DNA of 62,357 bases from the IMG/VR virus record IMGVR_UViG_3300017734_000004, positions 1-62,357 of that record; one strand, written 5' to 3'. Positions 1,776-60,947 of the stretch are shown in pieces (positions within the stretch are counted from its first letter, which is position 1; each line of letters starts with the position of its first letter). The notes under the pieces were generated by a model. That model did no database searches and was not told where the DNA came from. It saw only the letters and a program-made list of their open reading frames with translations. A program made the translations under genes and the position numbers. This stretch comes from a virus.

Positions 1776-1846
1776 TTAAGTTGTACTAATCAATAAGAAG
1801 AAGACTCATTCTGAGTCTTTCTTCTTCTTATTGATAGTACTACTAA
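1776..1846. other. Long hairpin, early-arm element 1
   Basis: Arms of about 20 pairs (around ATCAATAAGAAGAAGACTCA and its complement, with a 3-nt bulge) close on a loop of only a few bases. Outer flanks TTAAG.TGTACTA and TAGTACTACTAA pair as well. The flanks match those of hairpins at 3487, 4148 and 61580, although the stem sequence is different. There is no U-tract on either strand, so it is not a standard terminator. It lies between genes 1851..2072 and 1599..1763. Confidence 0.85.
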
Positions 1847-3462: not shown

Positions 3463-3486
3463 CGGGAAAGGATTTGATGGTTGTTA

Positions 3487-3545
3487 AGAGGGGTTTGTAA
3501 TATATATCTCTCATGTTCCATGAGATATATATTACTAACCTCTCT
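3487..3545. other. Long hairpin, early-arm element 2
   Basis: AGAGGGGTT pairs with AACCTCTCT through nine positions (one G-U). After a T-T mismatch, GTAATATATATCTC pairs with its complement, with a 2-nt bulge and a short loop near TTC, giving about 26 pairs in total. Sequence and layout are almost the same as the hairpin at 61580. No U-tract follows on either strand. It sits in the leader of gene 3283..3462 on the minus strand. Confidence 0.88.
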
Positions 3546-3563
3546 AAAGGTTGGTGGATTCGG

Positions 3564-4147: not shown

Positions 4148-4212
4148 AGATGTTGTAAGTAATAAAAGAAGATTCGTAAACGAATCATCTTCTTTTATTA
4201 CTAACAACCTCT
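4148..4212. other. Long hairpin, early-arm element 3
   Basis: GTAATAAAAGAAGA..TTCG pairs with CGAA..TCTTCTTTTATTAC around a short TAAA loop, with a 3-nt bulge on the right arm. The outer segment AGATGTTGT pairs with ACAACCTCT with one mismatch. The right flank TACTAACAACCTCTAAGG matches the flanks of the hairpins at 3487 and 61580, whereas the stem does not. It is the leader of the first early gene (3892..4137). Confidence 0.85.
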
Positions 4213-4875
4213 AAGGGGTCGGAGTCTGGGGTCATGGATGAGTACTACTGGTAGTACTCATATAGGAGGAGGGAGTTGTCCTCGGGCCGCTTATAGCTGG
4301 GGGAGCCAAACCCATAACTAACCGCATATACCTACACATGTACGGTTACTTAACGTGGGGTACGGCAAGTGGCTGTCGCACAGCGCGGTACAAAAAGCTG
4401 AAAGTATACAGCTAACCGCGTATGTGTGCGGTAGATAGGTATCATAAGCGCGTTTCGGGTAGGCGTGCGTGGCGTGCGCATATATATATAATCCCCTTCA
4501 CCTCTATGACTCAAAAAATTTTCAGCCCAAATTTTTCTTCAGTCCCTTTTGCGCCCTTTTTTCTGCGGTTGCGCGATTCTTCTCCGATCAGTCTGATTTG
4601 TGTAAGCCTTATGATTACTAATCACTTACACATCTACACCTAGACTGTTTGTTTACTCTTGTTTTTGTCATTTTTCTTGGTTAACTTTGCTGTAGTTAGA
4701 AGCGAAACCAGAAAAACCTAACGATTCGTTTTGTTTTTAGTGTATTCGTAGAGAATCACTGGTAGTTCGTTTTAATTGGTTCTTAAGAGACAGCTGCATC
4801 CTGTTTCTTTGGCACATAATCATCATTATACCGCATTATCTTGGTGATCACGGGGGCTGCTGATAGCTTAGCCCC
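4213..4875. other. Large non-coding divergence region (early/late control, possible origin)
   Basis: This is the only long stretch without a convincing gene, and it separates the two divergent arms. It contains a perfect 10-bp-arm palindrome (TGAGTACTAC / GTAGTACTCA, 4239-4260), two TAACCGC(A/G)TA copies (about 4319 and 4413) with nearby TACGGTTA and GTGCGGTA inverted forms, a purine/pyrimidine alternating run ending in TATATATATA (about 4480-4490), an inverted repeat TGTGTAAG / CTTACACA (4599-4606 and 4625-4632), and a T-rich block before the late arm. Promoters for both arms and possibly the replication origin should be here. Confidence 0.7.
4659..4689 (+). promoter_or_regulatory. Candidate late-arm promoter
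   Basis: TAACTTTG at 4682-4689 fits the Bacteroidota -7 box TAnnTTTG. A TTG at 4659-4661 lies 20 bp upstream, within the expected -33 spacing. It faces the first rightward gene (4876), leaving a leader of about 180 nt. Confidence 0.4.
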
Positions 4876-5590: not shown

Positions 5591-5598
5591 TACATTTG
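5591..5598 (+). promoter_or_regulatory. Candidate promoter -7 box TACATTTG
   Basis: TACATTTG fits TAnnTTTG in the 50-bp gap before gene 5611..6045. The leader would be only a few nucleotides long. TTG is present at 5571-5580 region only loosely, so the -33 part is weak. Confidence 0.4.
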
Positions 5599-5610: not shown

Positions 5611-6045
5611 ATGGCACTTACGGTAACCATTCAAGAGGATCTAATCCTTAGCGGTAACGATAAAAGCAATACCAATACTGCGACGTTTGGTTGCACAAAT
5701 CTGGACCACCGCATCCTTACAATTACAAATGCAGAGAAGAGCATCTTGCTTTTTGACGCAGCCAACGAGGCTGGCACAATTAAAGACAACAACCTTACCT
5801 ACCTAAGGATTACAAATCTGGATGCTAGTGATACTATCACTCTGCGTGTACGTGATGCAGCCCAGGAGTTTATGGTGCAGGTTAATGGTCAAGGATCTTT
5901 TCTGTTGACAGAAGATAAGTTGGATGCAGATGCCACGGGGAGTGAAGAGGTTACCAGTCTTTCTCAGATCAATAAGATCTCAGCTGTATCTTCTGATGCC
6001 TCTGGATCTTTGGTTGAAATTTATGCTGCATCTGTATTCGCATAA
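5611..6045 (+). CDS. Beta-rich putative virion protein (144 aa)
   Basis: Starts MALTVTIQEDLILSGND and is a Thr/Ser/Asn-rich, strand-only protein with repeated LRITNLDASDTITLRV-type segments. Small decoration or head-fibre proteins commonly look like this, as do the proteins at 20376-21560. It is followed two bases later by the DUF5675-like gene. No specific family match was recognised. Confidence 0.75.
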   Translation: MALTVTIQEDLILSGNDKSNTNTATFGCTNLDHRILTITNAEKSILLFDAANEAGTIKDNNLTYLRITNLDASDTITLRVRDAAQEFMVQVNGQGSFLLTEDKLDADATGSEEVTSLSQINKISAVSSDASGSLVEIYAASVFA

Positions 6046-9832: not shown

Positions 9833-9856
9833 TAAATTTGTTTCAAGGCAAACCTA
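9833..9856. promoter_or_regulatory. Back-to-back candidate promoter boxes
   Basis: TAAATTTG (9833-9840) points right toward ATG 9856. TAGGTTTG, read on the minus strand at 9856-9849, points left toward ATG 9826. Both fit TAnnTTTG. The two boxes lie in the 29 bp between the divergent starts, so a regulator binding here would affect both genes. Confidence 0.4.
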
Positions 9857-14466: not shown

Positions 14467-14474
14467 TATATTTG
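14467..14474 (+). promoter_or_regulatory. Candidate promoter -7 box TATATTTG
   Basis: TATATTTG lies in the 33-bp gap between terL and the portal gene, 20 bp before ATG 14495. It is an exact TAnnTTTG match; no clear -33 TTTG is present. Confidence 0.45.
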
Positions 14475-19718: not shown

Positions 19719-19730
19719 TCATTATATTTG
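19703..19730 (+). promoter_or_regulatory. Candidate promoter with both elements
   Basis: TTTG at 19703-19706 and TATATTTG at 19723-19730 are 16 bp apart, matching the Bacteroidota -33/-7 pattern. The -7 box ends only 4 bp before ATG 19735, so the transcript would start at or very near the start codon. The -33 part lies within the end of the previous gene. Confidence 0.5.
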
Positions 19731-20349: not shown

Positions 20350-20357
20350 TATATTTG
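20350..20357 (+). promoter_or_regulatory. Candidate promoter -7 box TATATTTG
   Basis: Exact TATATTTG in the 34-bp gap before gene 20376..20768; ATG follows 18 bp after the box. No convincing -33 element in the purine-rich upstream coding sequence. Confidence 0.45.
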
Positions 20358-26656: not shown

Positions 26657-26684
26657 TATATTTGCAATATGAGGGCTATCTTTG
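26657..26684 (+). promoter_or_regulatory. Two overlapping promoter boxes after the terminator
   Basis: TATATTTG (26657-26664) and TATCTTTG (26677-26684) both fit TAnnTTTG, immediately after the terminator U-tract. The second is 20 bp from ATG 26705. The terminator/promoter pair marks a transcription-unit boundary. Confidence 0.5.
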
Positions 26685-26704: not shown

Positions 26705-28003
26705 ATGAAATTTTTTCTGTTTAGCATATCTAATGTATCGCTGGCGAGCACAAGAAACTCGGACAGCGGCATTGGCATTAGCTCTATAGCTATCCCTGCT
26801 AACAAGCTCTCAAACATCACGGCCACCAAAGGCTTTGTCAACATGACGTTTGATGATGCGGGCGTGTATGATGAGTCCTTTATGAATGTGGGGGAGGCTA
26901 TCGAAAAAGTAAATATCTCCGTAGCTGCAGCAGAATCTCGTGAGGTCAATCTGATCGAAGACATTTTGAACTTCATCTCTTCGGAAGAGCGTCAGTTTGT
27001 GATGAGGTTTGATGCTGTAAACAATGTGTCTAACATGCGGTTCTCAGATGTAAGCTCATCCTCCAACCTCATAGCCAAGGTCTCTACTGCGCCTATCAAT
27101 ATGGAAACGGGAAGGCTGTCTGTTGGCACAACAGAGGAGGAGTTCCAAGACACGATTGCTGGCATCAACTTCAGAGGCAACTTACCATCCCTTGACTTTA
27201 ACCATGAAGGATTGTCTGGCTTTGCAGATGGCGCAGAGATTACGTCGTGGTCTAATGATGGCACTCTAGGTTCAACTCATAGCATAGTGGCTAATTCTGG
27301 AACGCCAAAGTGCGAAACATCTGCTGCTACAAGCAACCTGTCTAAGAACTCTGCTGACATTGGTGTCTCAGCCGTTGGTGCTCACTTTATCGTACCAAAT
27401 GCATTTACTGTAACGGATGATTACACAATCTATTGTGTCATTGGTCAAGCCATTCCAGTCATGTGTCTCTATGGTGATGCTGCTGGGCAGACTGTTGGGT
27501 TTGGTGGATCGTATCCAGCGGGCACAGACTTAACTCTTAGTAGCGTCGTTGACAAAAGAAATTCTTTTTCTGTAAGGCATAGCGGTATAGATGGTGCTGT
27601 AGCTTCAGTGCAAACAAACAACGAAGACAGTGGCACCTTGTCATACAAGTGGCCGAAAGCTCAGATCGCACAGCAAGTTGTTGCGGACTACGATGCAGAA
27701 GTTTTCATCATTAGACGAGACAAGAGCTTCAATATGATCTTGCACAACAGGGATGGAGATATTATTGGGTTCATACCTGCTAAGACTAAAGCCCAAGACG
27801 AGAATCTTACTAAGGATTCTTCCGCAAGAACAGATGGAAACCTTTTGATTGAGAGACTAGGCACAGTGAAAGATATTATCTCTGTTGCTGGGGGCCGTGG
27901 CTTTAGAGGCTACGTCGCTAGGTTTGGCGTAATACCTCAAGACATTGGCGTTACCAAAGCCAGAATACTTGCAGAAGACTTATTTAAATTTTACAAATCT
28001 TAA
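26705..28003 (+). CDS. Putative virion protein with lectin-like domain (432 aa)
   Basis: The ATG at 26705 is chosen (MKFFLFSISNVSLASTRNSD); a TTG just upstream is less likely. Residues about 1-140 again begin with a KFFLFS strand like the array members. From about 155 a concanavalin/LamG-like region follows (LPSLDFNHEGLSGFADGAEI, SWSNDGTLGS, DDYTIYCVIGQ, FGVIPQDIGVTKARILAEDL). Probably a structural protein binding polysaccharide or another virion part. Confidence 0.72.
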   Translation: MKFFLFSISNVSLASTRNSDSGIGISSIAIPANKLSNITATKGFVNMTFDDAGVYDESFMNVGEAIEKVNISVAAAESREVNLIEDILNFISSEERQFVMRFDAVNNVSNMRFSDVSSSSNLIAKVSTAPINMETGRLSVGTTEEEFQDTIAGINFRGNLPSLDFNHEGLSGFADGAEITSWSNDGTLGSTHSIVANSGTPKCETSAATSNLSKNSADIGVSAVGAHFIVPNAFTVTDDYTIYCVIGQAIPVMCLYGDAAGQTVGFGGSYPAGTDLTLSSVVDKRNSFSVRHSGIDGAVASVQTNNEDSGTLSYKWPKAQIAQQVVADYDAEVFIIRRDKSFNMILHNRDGDIIGFIPAKTKAQDENLTKDSSARTDGNLLIERLGTVKDIISVAGGRGFRGYVARFGVIPQDIGVTKARILAEDLFKFYKS

Positions 28004-28910: not shown

Positions 28911-28918
28911 TATATTTG
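28911..28918 (+). promoter_or_regulatory. Candidate promoter -7 box TATATTTG, near-leaderless
   Basis: TATATTTG lies directly behind the terminator and only 4 bp before ATG 28923, so the predicted mRNA would be leaderless or nearly so. This is the same arrangement as at 19723. Confidence 0.5.
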
Positions 28919-37669: not shown

Positions 37670-37677
37670 TATTTTTG
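37670..37677 (+). promoter_or_regulatory. Candidate promoter -7 box TATTTTTG
   Basis: TATTTTTG fits TAnnTTTG in the 39-bp gap before gene 37701..38813. A weaker TATATTG also occurs further on. No -33 element was recognised. Confidence 0.38.
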
Positions 37678-37700: not shown

Positions 37701-38813
37701 ATGAGCGCATTAGGTACAGCTTTATTGGTATCCCAGGGACTGGGAGCTCTTGGTAACTTCTTTATTGGAAGAAACCAAAAGAAAGAGGGACGACGCCTGG
37801 CTCGTCAGGGCAGAAAGGATATGCTTGCTACTGCTGGGCCAAGCGCTGAGCTTCTCGCTGGGGTCGATGAAACCAAAGGCCTTATTGCACAGGGTCAGGC
37901 AAGGGGTGAGGAAAGGCTTGACTCCAGTGTGGCTGGGTTTCTAGACGCTCTTGAGTCAGGCAACCAGTCTACCCTCGGCGCACTTACTGGTCAGTTTGCA
38001 GGGAATGTAGCTCAAGCAGGGGCAGATGCTGGGCTACAAGCCGCCTCTGCTATGGCTCAAGCCAATCAACCAGCCATTGATGCAGCAGAGCGTGAGATGG
38101 ATGTCTCACGACAGCTCGCAGGCTTTGATTTTCAGACAGGAACAGATGCATTTAACAAGGGCAAGCAGTTGCAGTTTGATGCTGCGGGGCAATTGCTAGA
38201 TATGCCTATGGACTTGGCAACGCTTCAAGTAGCCAACGATGGTGCCTTTGATAACCTGTTCCCTTTCCTAGGGGAGAATGGTGTTAAGGTGGGGCAAGCT
38301 GGAGCGTATACAGGCAGTGGCATCAACTCATCAACCATCAAGGACCTGTTGGCTGCCATGCCTAAGAAGAAAGATGACGACAAGGAGGAGGAGACAGAAG
38401 AAGAGAAGCGGAAGAGAGAGGAGCAAGAAAGGATTGAAGCCGCAAAGCGGGGTGAAGCCGCTGATACCGTAGATACGGTTGACAATGTAGGAGCCATGGG
38501 CGGCATGATGGGACCTGGCGACACGTTTCGCACCAAGGGCGCTGAAGATCACGACAAACAAGAGTACAATATTGTAGACGCTGAAACAGGTCAAACTGTA
38601 GCTAAGACAACAGGACAAGAAGATCACACCGTCAATGAAGACGGAAGCATGACGGTCCTAAACAGCGACCAGTCGGGATCTATTCATGACGCATTCAAAG
38701 GTGTTGATGTGCCGATGCTTCTTAAGTTCCTTGAGAAGTACCCACAGAAGGGGCAAGTCAGGGAGCTGATGTCTGCCTTGAATGTGTTCACTCTACCACA
38801 ATTCCAAGACTGA
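37701..38813 (+). CDS. Internal virion (ejection) protein 1 (370 aa)
   Basis: The hydrophobic start MSALGTALLVSQGLGALGNF and an Ala/Gln/Gly-rich helical body (QAGADAGLQAASAMAQANQP) are typical of podovirus internal proteins that leave the head with the DNA and line the channel through the envelope. A charged, very acidic linker (KKKDDDKEEETEEEKRKREE) lies at about 225-245. First of three such genes, coupled to the next by TGATG. Confidence 0.75.
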   Translation: MSALGTALLVSQGLGALGNFFIGRNQKKEGRRLARQGRKDMLATAGPSAELLAGVDETKGLIAQGQARGEERLDSSVAGFLDALESGNQSTLGALTGQFAGNVAQAGADAGLQAASAMAQANQPAIDAAEREMDVSRQLAGFDFQTGTDAFNKGKQLQFDAAGQLLDMPMDLATLQVANDGAFDNLFPFLGENGVKVGQAGAYTGSGINSSTIKDLLAAMPKKKDDDKEEETEEEKRKREEQERIEAAKRGEAADTVDTVDNVGAMGGMMGPGDTFRTKGAEDHDKQEYNIVDAETGQTVAKTTGQEDHTVNEDGSMTVLNSDQSGSIHDAFKGVDVPMLLKFLEKYPQKGQVRELMSALNVFTLPQFQD

Positions 38814-53850: not shown

Positions 53851-54720
53851 TCAGTTCAGGTACTTGAGCAGCACTTCGTTGCGCTTCGTGTATCGCAGTC
53901 GGCGCATTGCCCCCTCACGAATCTGACGCACACGCTCTGCCGTCAAGTCGAACAGCTCACCCATCTCGGTATTGGACAATGCTTGTCTACCGTCAAGACC
54001 AAACGAGTGTGTGATGATCGCCTGCTCCCTGAATGACAGGATGCTCAGGCACGATTCGATGTCACCCATCAAGCTCTCTTTCTCAAGGCCTTCATCGGGG
54101 CTCTCGGTATCGGCGCTCTCAATCAGGTCGCCCATCGTCATTGAACCATTGTCATCTCTGTTGATAGGGTTGTCCAAGCTTGCAGTCCTGACTGCGCTTT
54201 TGATAACGAGGTCAACATCTTGCACACGCATGTCCAAGTAGTCGCCAATCTCTGCTGATGTCGGTGCTCTTTCGAACTCCTGCTCAAGCACAGCGTATGC
54301 GCTCCTGACTTTGAGCATGGCTGAGATCTTGTTCTGAGGCAAGCGTACCATTCTGCCCTTGTCTGACATGGATGCCAAGATGTTCTGCCTAATCCACCAC
54401 ACAGCATACGAGATGAACTTGAAGCCACGTGTCTCATCGAATCGTTGAGCTGCTTTGATCAGCCCGACGTTGCCCTCACTGATGAGGTCTGATAGCGTGA
54501 GCCCCTGGTTTTGGTATTGCTTGGCTACCGACACAACGAATCTGAGGTTAGCCTTTGTGAGCTCATGCATGGCAGCTTCGTCGCCCCCTCTGATGAGCTG
54601 TGCCAGTTCGATCTCTCTTTGTGGTGAGATCATAGGCTCCTTGGCGATGTCGTACAGGTATTTATCGAGGGCACCTTGATCCCTGTTTGTGATTTGCTTT
54701 GTGATTTTAAGCTGTCTCAT
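53851..54720 (-). CDS. RpoD-like sigma-70 factor (289 aa)
   Basis: MRQLKITKQITNRDQGALDK at the N-terminus reproduces the Bacteroidota primary sigma start. Region 1.2 (about 17-50), region 2 with LTKANLRFVVSVAKQYQNQG and FISYAVWWIRQNILA (2.3-2.4, about 102-116), region 3 (125-200), and region 4 with NTEMGELFDLTAERVRQIRE (4.2 helix-turn-helix) are all present. The length matches the host housekeeping factor. It would redirect host RNA polymerase to phage promoters, perhaps the TAnnTTTG boxes of the late arm. Last gene of the leftward arm, facing the end of the late arm. Confidence 0.95.
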   Translation of the reverse strand: MRQLKITKQITNRDQGALDKYLYDIAKEPMISPQREIELAQLIRGGDEAAMHELTKANLRFVVSVAKQYQNQGLTLSDLISEGNVGLIKAAQRFDETRGFKFISYAVWWIRQNILASMSDKGRMVRLPQNKISAMLKVRSAYAVLEQEFERAPTSAEIGDYLDMRVQDVDLVIKSAVRTASLDNPINRDDNGSMTMGDLIESADTESPDEGLEKESLMGDIESCLSILSFREQAIITHSFGLDGRQALSNTEMGELFDLTAERVRQIREGAMRRLRYTKRNEVLLKYLN

Positions 54721-55105
54721 GCTGTGCTTGTTGGTTTTGTGTGTTTATTAATTCTTGTCTTGCGGCAACTAACTTGTCTATCCTCTTGTCCAGGGTGTCT
54801 ATCTTCAGTTGCAACAGGTGATCCTGCAGGTTTTGTTCTATCTCATCGCTAACTATCTCGTAGATCTCACGATACCCCTTCCAGTATTTTAGATTCTGTA
54901 CATGCTTGGTTGTGTAATGACTGACACTTGACCTGTCCCTGTTGAGGGCTGTGCCAATCTCATACGTGTTACAGTAAGACGAGAGTGCTACGCCAATGGC
55001 TGCCCGAATCTGTATATGAAGTTTGGTTCGTGAGTTGCTGGGCCGAACACCTAGGGCAGCATAAGCCTGGCGAACGGCAACTTCTATTGCTTCCGATCGT
55101 TTCAT
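54707..55105 (-). CDS. DnaA domain-IV-like DNA-binding protein (132 aa)
   Basis: Residues about 28-80 (HIQIRAAIGVALSSYCNTYE, then IGTALNRDRSSVSHYTTKHV) follow the DnaA C-terminal helix-turn-helix that binds DnaA boxes (compare its GRDHSTVLHA signature). The ATPase domain is absent. A C-terminal coiled coil (QLKIDTLDKRIDKLVAARQE) may dimerise it. It could help start replication at the phage origin or interfere with host DnaA. Overlaps the sigma gene start by 14 bp. Confidence 0.75.
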   Translation of the reverse strand: MKRSEAIEVAVRQAYAALGVRPSNSRTKLHIQIRAAIGVALSSYCNTYEIGTALNRDRSSVSHYTTKHVQNLKYWKGYREIYEIVSDEIEQNLQDHLLQLKIDTLDKRIDKLVAARQELINTQNQQAQHETA

Positions 55106-60862: not shown

Positions 60863-60873
60863 TGTGTGTTTTG

Positions 60874-60947
60874 CGATCCCACAGGGACTCGAACCCCGAA
60901 CCTGCACATTAGAAGTGTGCTGCTCTATCCAGTTGAGCTATGGGACC
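60874..60947 (-). tRNA. tRNA-Arg (anticodon UCU)
   Basis: A complete cloverleaf: acceptor GGTCCCA/TGGGATC (seven pairs, one G-U), D arm GCTC...GAGC, anticodon stem GCACA/TGTGC with loop CTTCTAA (anticodon TCT, reads AGA), T arm CGGGG/CCCTG with TTCGAGT, discriminator G. CCA is not encoded. It starts 7 bp after the stop of the GP88-like gene. AGA is a common arginine codon in the phage genes, which may explain its retention. Confidence 0.95.

Follow-up and report, generated by a model that had tools for sequence, protein, structure and literature searches.

The window, by which we mean the whole stretch of DNA analysed, is an IMG/VR virus record of 62,357 bp. Its terminal 123 bases are identical at both ends, which suggests that the genome is complete and either circularly permuted or terminally redundant; because of this 123-bp repeat, we regard it as probably the complete genome of a Flavobacterium/Cellulophaga-type podovirus. 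The terminase and portal are homologous to proteins of the Flavobacterium elemo and Cellulophaga phi38:1 podoviruses, which makes a bacterium of the Bacteroidota the most likely host. A nucleotide search with the structural region found no match among GenBank phages. The genes form a rightward arm of virion genes (about 4.9-53.8 kb) and a leftward arm containing the primase/helicase, the exonuclease and small genes. The leftward arm is terminated by a sigma factor gene, which converges on the end of the structural arm. The following features lie in the leftward (early) arm.

53851..54720, minus strand: RpoD-like sigma factor gene, 289 aa, ATG start (residues below are E. coli-numbered unless stated)
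54707..55105, minus strand: 132-aa gene directly upstream of the sigma gene, whose first 14 nt it overlaps
60873-60947, minus strand: tRNA-Arg gene, anticodon TCT

Three sister phages, likewise from IMG/VR (G002, G003 and G004), keep most of the window genes in the same order. The sigma gene had been described as the last gene of the early arm, and this holds in the window, G002 and G004 but not in G003, where it lies inside the early arm; the terminal position therefore does not fix the timing of sigma expression. The 132-aa gene is syntenic in G002 and G004, with an identical overlap with sigma. Its weak, below-cut-off match to a helix-turn-helix family (HTH_38, E 0.05) makes a helix-turn-helix product possible. 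By eye, one stretch of this protein recalls the DnaA DNA-binding signature.

The sigma protein begins with MRQLKITKQITNRDQ (MRQLKITK) and contains regions 1.2, 2, 3 and 4 of the sigma-70 family, with Pfam scores of 31.7, 64.3, 49.8 and 33.3 bits, respectively, all above the curated cut-offs. It is as long as the RpoD proteins of cellular Bacteroidota, which match it over its own residues 1-288, and the N-terminus, region content and host-like length given in the original prediction are thus borne out. The protein also matched PHROG 351 (RNA polymerase sigma factor, E 7.5e-61). Among the NCBIfam models, those for RpoD and RpoS scored best, yet all remained below their curated cut-offs, as exemplified by the RpoD equivalog TIGR02393 (216.2 against a cut-off of 354 bits). 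The group 3 model FliA_WhiG gave 107.7 bits, which is below its cut-off and far below the RpoD and RpoS models. The ECF models likewise scored far below these two, and ECF (group 4) factors have regions 2 and 4 only, whereas the window sigma also has regions 1.2 and 3. The relatives with solved structures are SigA/RpoD and RpoS, and a predicted model of modest quality (mean pLDDT 70.6, pTM 0.40) matched sigmaA and sigmaS chains in a Foldseek search.

In an 85-row tree, the window sigma and those of the three sister phages, which are its nearest proteins (60, 59 and 55% identity), formed a clade (support 96/99) nested in the Bacteroidota RpoD radiation, away from E. coli RpoD and RpoS. A second tree, built without the recognition-helix columns and containing no E. 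coli rows, recovered the phage clade with a support of 99. The phylogeny proposed as a check therefore groups this sigma with Bacteroidota; ECF and group 3 relations were judged from family scores and domain content, which speak against them. On sequence grounds, the protein is securely assigned as a complete primary-type sigma factor of Bacteroidota RpoD ancestry.

The gene had been called a near full-length copy of the host sigma factor. Although it is complete in all four regions, it proved to be a diverged relative, with 56% identity to the best cellular Bacteroidota RpoD and about 40% to the best GenBank phage matches. A second sigma from a Dokdonia MAG (L114) was sister to the phage clade in the 85-row tree with moderate support (90/94), making it the nearest cellular branch there, but the second tree placed it elsewhere, so that the link is weak. 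Between the window and its sister phages, the sigma is 55-60% identical, as compared with 86-90% for the portal and 86-89% for the primase; several virion genes are lower still (26-46%), and a few small early genes have identities similar to or below that of sigma. Sigma is thus among the fast-evolving genes, albeit not the fastest, and among the fastest-changing outside the virion genes. By all appearances, it belongs to an old, fast-evolving phage lineage and is no recent copy of a present host factor.

The divergence is unevenly distributed. Relative to the Phaeocystidibacter RpoD (L082), used as the reference for region-by-region identity, identity is about 80% in regions 2.1-2.4 but 29% in region 3.2, 40% in region 4.1 and 59% in region 4.2. 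Using 41 dereplicated cellular Bacteroidota sigmas, we defined 101 near-invariant positions (conserved in at least 95%), and only three of them, 406, 441 and 584, carry a non-conservative change in all four phages: N to S at 406, Q to A or S at 441 and R to A or S at 584. In the window sigma, these correspond to Ser at residue 81, Ala at residue 116 and Ala at residue 261, and the three relatives have Ser at 584. We take position 406 to belong to the core-binding region and 441 to lie beside the -12 readers.

The protein shares with Bacteroidota RpoD/sigmaA, which uses TAnnTTTG as its -7 element, the length, the MRQLKITK start, the four regions and the -10 region residues W433, W434, Q437 and L440, and differs in the equivalents of R584, Q441 and N406. 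The claim that the phage supplies its own version of the primary factor stands as regards full length and RpoD descent, but this version is altered. Since the promoter residues of regions 2.3-2.4 are mostly kept, as the suggested comparison of specificity residues revealed, this part appears compatible with TAnnTTTG; in region 4.2, however, the reader of the -35/-33 element, R584, is lost. Neither of the outcomes named beforehand as refuting the proposal, placement among ECF or group 3 factors and specificity residues incompatible with TAnnTTTG, was observed. R584 is a residue of the recognition helix, and its neighbours E585, R588 and Q589 are all retained, which argues for specialisation of the helix and against its decay. 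According to a review, R584 contacts position -31, the R584C substitution relaxes specificity there, and R584A in E. coli moves the -31 preference from C:G to A:T (PMC2613000).

The loss of this arginine recurs among phages. Among unique sequences, position 584 is R in 112 of 113 cellular sigmas and K in the remaining one, whereas K occupies it in 65 and R in 23 of the 126 phage RpoD-like sigmas, nearly all others having a different residue there. After dereplication at 85%, neither R nor K is present in 34 of 94 phage sigmas, as compared with 0 of 41 cellular ones (Fisher 6e-7, a p-value that is too small owing to the relatedness of the sequences). R584 loss is thus phage-specific in this sample, and the Dokdonia L114 sigma retains both R584 and Q441. 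The number of loss events is uncertain: parsimony on the tree without helix columns gives nine independent changes, of which the well-supported branches force only one.

Eleven other phage loci (L239, L240, L249, L254, L259, L260, L262, L264, L266, L312 and L269) encode two RpoD-like sigmas, head to tail and 27-142 nt apart. Ten of these pairs combine one R584 sigma with one R584-less sigma, and L269 combines R with K. The R584-less gene comes first in all ten mixed pairs, and by coordinates the K gene precedes the R gene in L269. Every intergenic gap (11/11) contains a TAnnTTTG box. The pairs mostly represent two co-inherited clades, and hence fewer than eleven independent cases.

Read by eye, the sequences before the first sigma in most tandem loci share a bipartite motif, TTGYAA-N17-CGTWT; L259 has ATGTAA in place of TTGYAA, and L269 has no such motif. 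The exact pattern was found in 10 of the 11 tandem-pair records searched (with the L261 record replacing that of L262), the sole exact match in the L259 record lying away from its sigma genes, and it is absent from all four window-type genomes. The motif resembles ECF-type promoters and could possibly be one, which we regard as a lead only; no ECF region 4 scored above the cut-off in the tandem-pair records searched.

The late genes carry TAnnTTTG boxes, as had been predicted. The plus strand of the window has 26 matches, 13 of which are followed by a gene start no more than 60 nt away, where about 1.3 would be expected. The variant TATATTTG occurs five times, each time within 60 nt before a gene start (0.7 expected). 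Ten boxes fall outside coding sequence, and the sister phages have equivalents of most. On the early strand, the motif is scarce (9 against about 20 expected), with 1 of the 9 this close to a following gene, and a search for minus-strand early promoters in the window found none. The boxes and the upstream promoter candidate are as follows.

4682..4689, plus strand: TAACTTTG with a TTG 20 nt upstream, conserved in all four phages
5591..5598, plus strand: late box TACATTTG, before the gene at 5611
9833..9840, plus strand: late box TAAATTTG, before the gene at 9856
14467..14474, plus strand: late box TATATTTG, before the portal gene, identical in all four phages
19723..19730, plus strand: late box TATATTTG, with a 4-nt spacer to the next ATG
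20350..20357, plus strand: late box TATATTTG, identical in all four phages
26657..26684, plus strand: pair of late boxes, TATATTTG and TATCTTTG, before the gene at 26705
28911..28918, plus strand: late box TATATTTG, after a GC-rich hairpin with a T-run, an arrangement common to all four phages
37670..37677, plus strand: late box TATTTTTG, before the gene at 37701

The TTG-N20-TAACTTTG arrangement at 4682 may represent a host-type promoter at the entrance to the late arm. The boxes at 19723-19730 and 28911-28918 both end 4 nt before an ATG, a spacing repeated in G002, G003 and G004; with start sites at the usual distance from these boxes, the late mRNAs would be nearly leaderless.

We compared these boxes with those of related phages and of host loci. 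The related phages, namely Callevirus phi38:1, Elemovirus (elemo 6-9C) and ctfjg026, all gave no match to sigma region 2. Of the 37 late boxes of the window clade, 2 have a TTG at the -33 spacing; the corresponding counts are 2 of 22 for the sigma-less relatives and 23 of 159 for host loci. The frequency in the clade is not clearly below that of the host set (2/37 vs 23/159), and the three counts do not establish that the clade has clearly lost the -33 element when compared with host promoters. The preferred box is TATATTTG in the window clade and mostly TATCTTTG in the sigma-less relatives. The fourth base is A in 11 of 15 grouped late loci versus 3 of 22 sigma-less ones (Fisher p 0.0004, with groups made by hand), and A is fairly frequent here in the host set as well (57/159, p 0.01), so that a shift to A in the window clade is suggestive.

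A strict sigma-TAnnTTTG link was considered as proof that the sigma is used, and was discarded. Because the sigma-less relatives carry similar late boxes, the boxes do not prove that the sigma is used or needed; since those late boxes also mostly lack a -33 TTG (2/22 have one), host RpoD alone can probably serve them. The proposed role in the early-to-late switch thus retains its boxes, which are real features of the late arm, but loses them as evidence that the sigma is required.

With moderate confidence, we favour a primary-type phage sigma for the late phase, in which recognition of -7 is preserved while reading of -33 has become looser or has shifted; the altered residues, the arrangement of the boxes and the tandem pairs all fit such a factor. 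We infer that the sigma would bind the host core RNA polymerase and help to shift transcription to the late arm, with the late boxes as its targets. Its almost intact region 2 would read the -7 element TAnnTTTG, with the phage preference for TATATTTG, and its region 4 would operate without the arginine responsible for recognising the distal end of the -35/-33 element. Lacking R584, it would favour -7-driven promoters without a -33 element, as the late boxes appear to be.

The box comparisons would also suit a simpler role, in which the sigma provides an extra primary-type holoenzyme or competes with the host sigma for core without having promoters of its own: sigma-less relatives possess late boxes of the same type, and the -33 TTG frequency is not clearly unlike that of host sites. 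We consider this unlikely, though the best placed of the alternatives, since the repeated, specific loss of R584 with its neighbours kept, and the splitting of tandem pairs into R and non-R forms, suggest a change in specificity. Next comes the idea that early proteins inactivate host RpoD and that an inhibitor-escaping phage sigma takes over its promoters unchanged. The mostly kept promoter residues of regions 2.3-2.4 agree with this, and the change at 406 (region 2.2) and the fast divergence of regions 3.2 and 4.1 could reflect escape; however, no anti-sigma candidate emerged among the scanned proteins, although most small early genes match no family, and the altered residue 584, as far as known, reads DNA and not an inhibitor, and we accordingly hold this replacement to be improbable. 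A middle or replication-phase sigma, serving a subset of promoters other than those of the late structural genes, is suggested by the location within the replication-gene arm (mid-arm in G003), but the early strand, depleted in TAnnTTTG, yielded no box class for it, making this role very unlikely. A decaying passenger gene is scarcely credible: the 55-60% identity is low relative to most neighbouring genes, but the ORF is intact in four phages over a long divergence, with region 2 strongly conserved and E585, R588 and Q589 kept.

Extending the late-phase reading beyond the window is more doubtful. Bacteroidota phages may repeatedly have converted the primary sigma of the host to a late factor that reads -7 only, by dropping the arginine that reads the -33 end, and some may use a tandem pair with and without R584 as a two-step promoter switch; we put this forward tentatively, as somewhat less likely than not.

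As for known systems, the late sigma of T4, gp55, goes with TATAAATA late promoters and has no normal region 4. Common to both cases is the notion that a phage sigma serves late promoters consisting of a -10 element only, but the window sigma does have a region 4, with one base-reading residue changed. Most phage sigmas had been said to be short, which is only partly true: complete RpoD-like sigmas are common in viral contigs, and those encoded by group 2 jumbo phages have been proposed to derive from cells and to serve in recruiting the host polymerase (PMC7824862). The window sigma resembles these in being phage-borne with a near-cellular RpoD architecture, and differs in its setting, a 62-kb podovirus-type genome, as that study covers jumbo phages (PMC7824862). 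While complete RpoD-like phage sigmas are therefore already known, we found no description of the R584 pattern or of tandem R584/R584-less pairs in the open-access literature, in a search not squarely aimed at tandem pairs, which is weak evidence that both are new. The window offers a testable case of a virus adapting the host primary sigma at a base-reading residue characterised in E. coli. The pairs with and without the arginine form a natural set for asking how promoter choice in Bacteroidota depends on sigma region 4, and are of value since the promoters of these bacteria are unusual.

Two further observations concern the genome as a whole. Long inverted repeats with 16-27 bp arms precede early genes in the window (1789-1835, 3484-3548 and 4148-4212), with no Rfam match in the stretches searched, and such repeats are also found upstream of early genes in G002, G003 and G004; the hairpin layout recurs, and the arm sequences vary between sites. 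In addition, the G+C content of the window is 46.7%, as compared with 36.5-37.1% in the three sister phages, despite terminase and portal proteins that are 85-90% identical.
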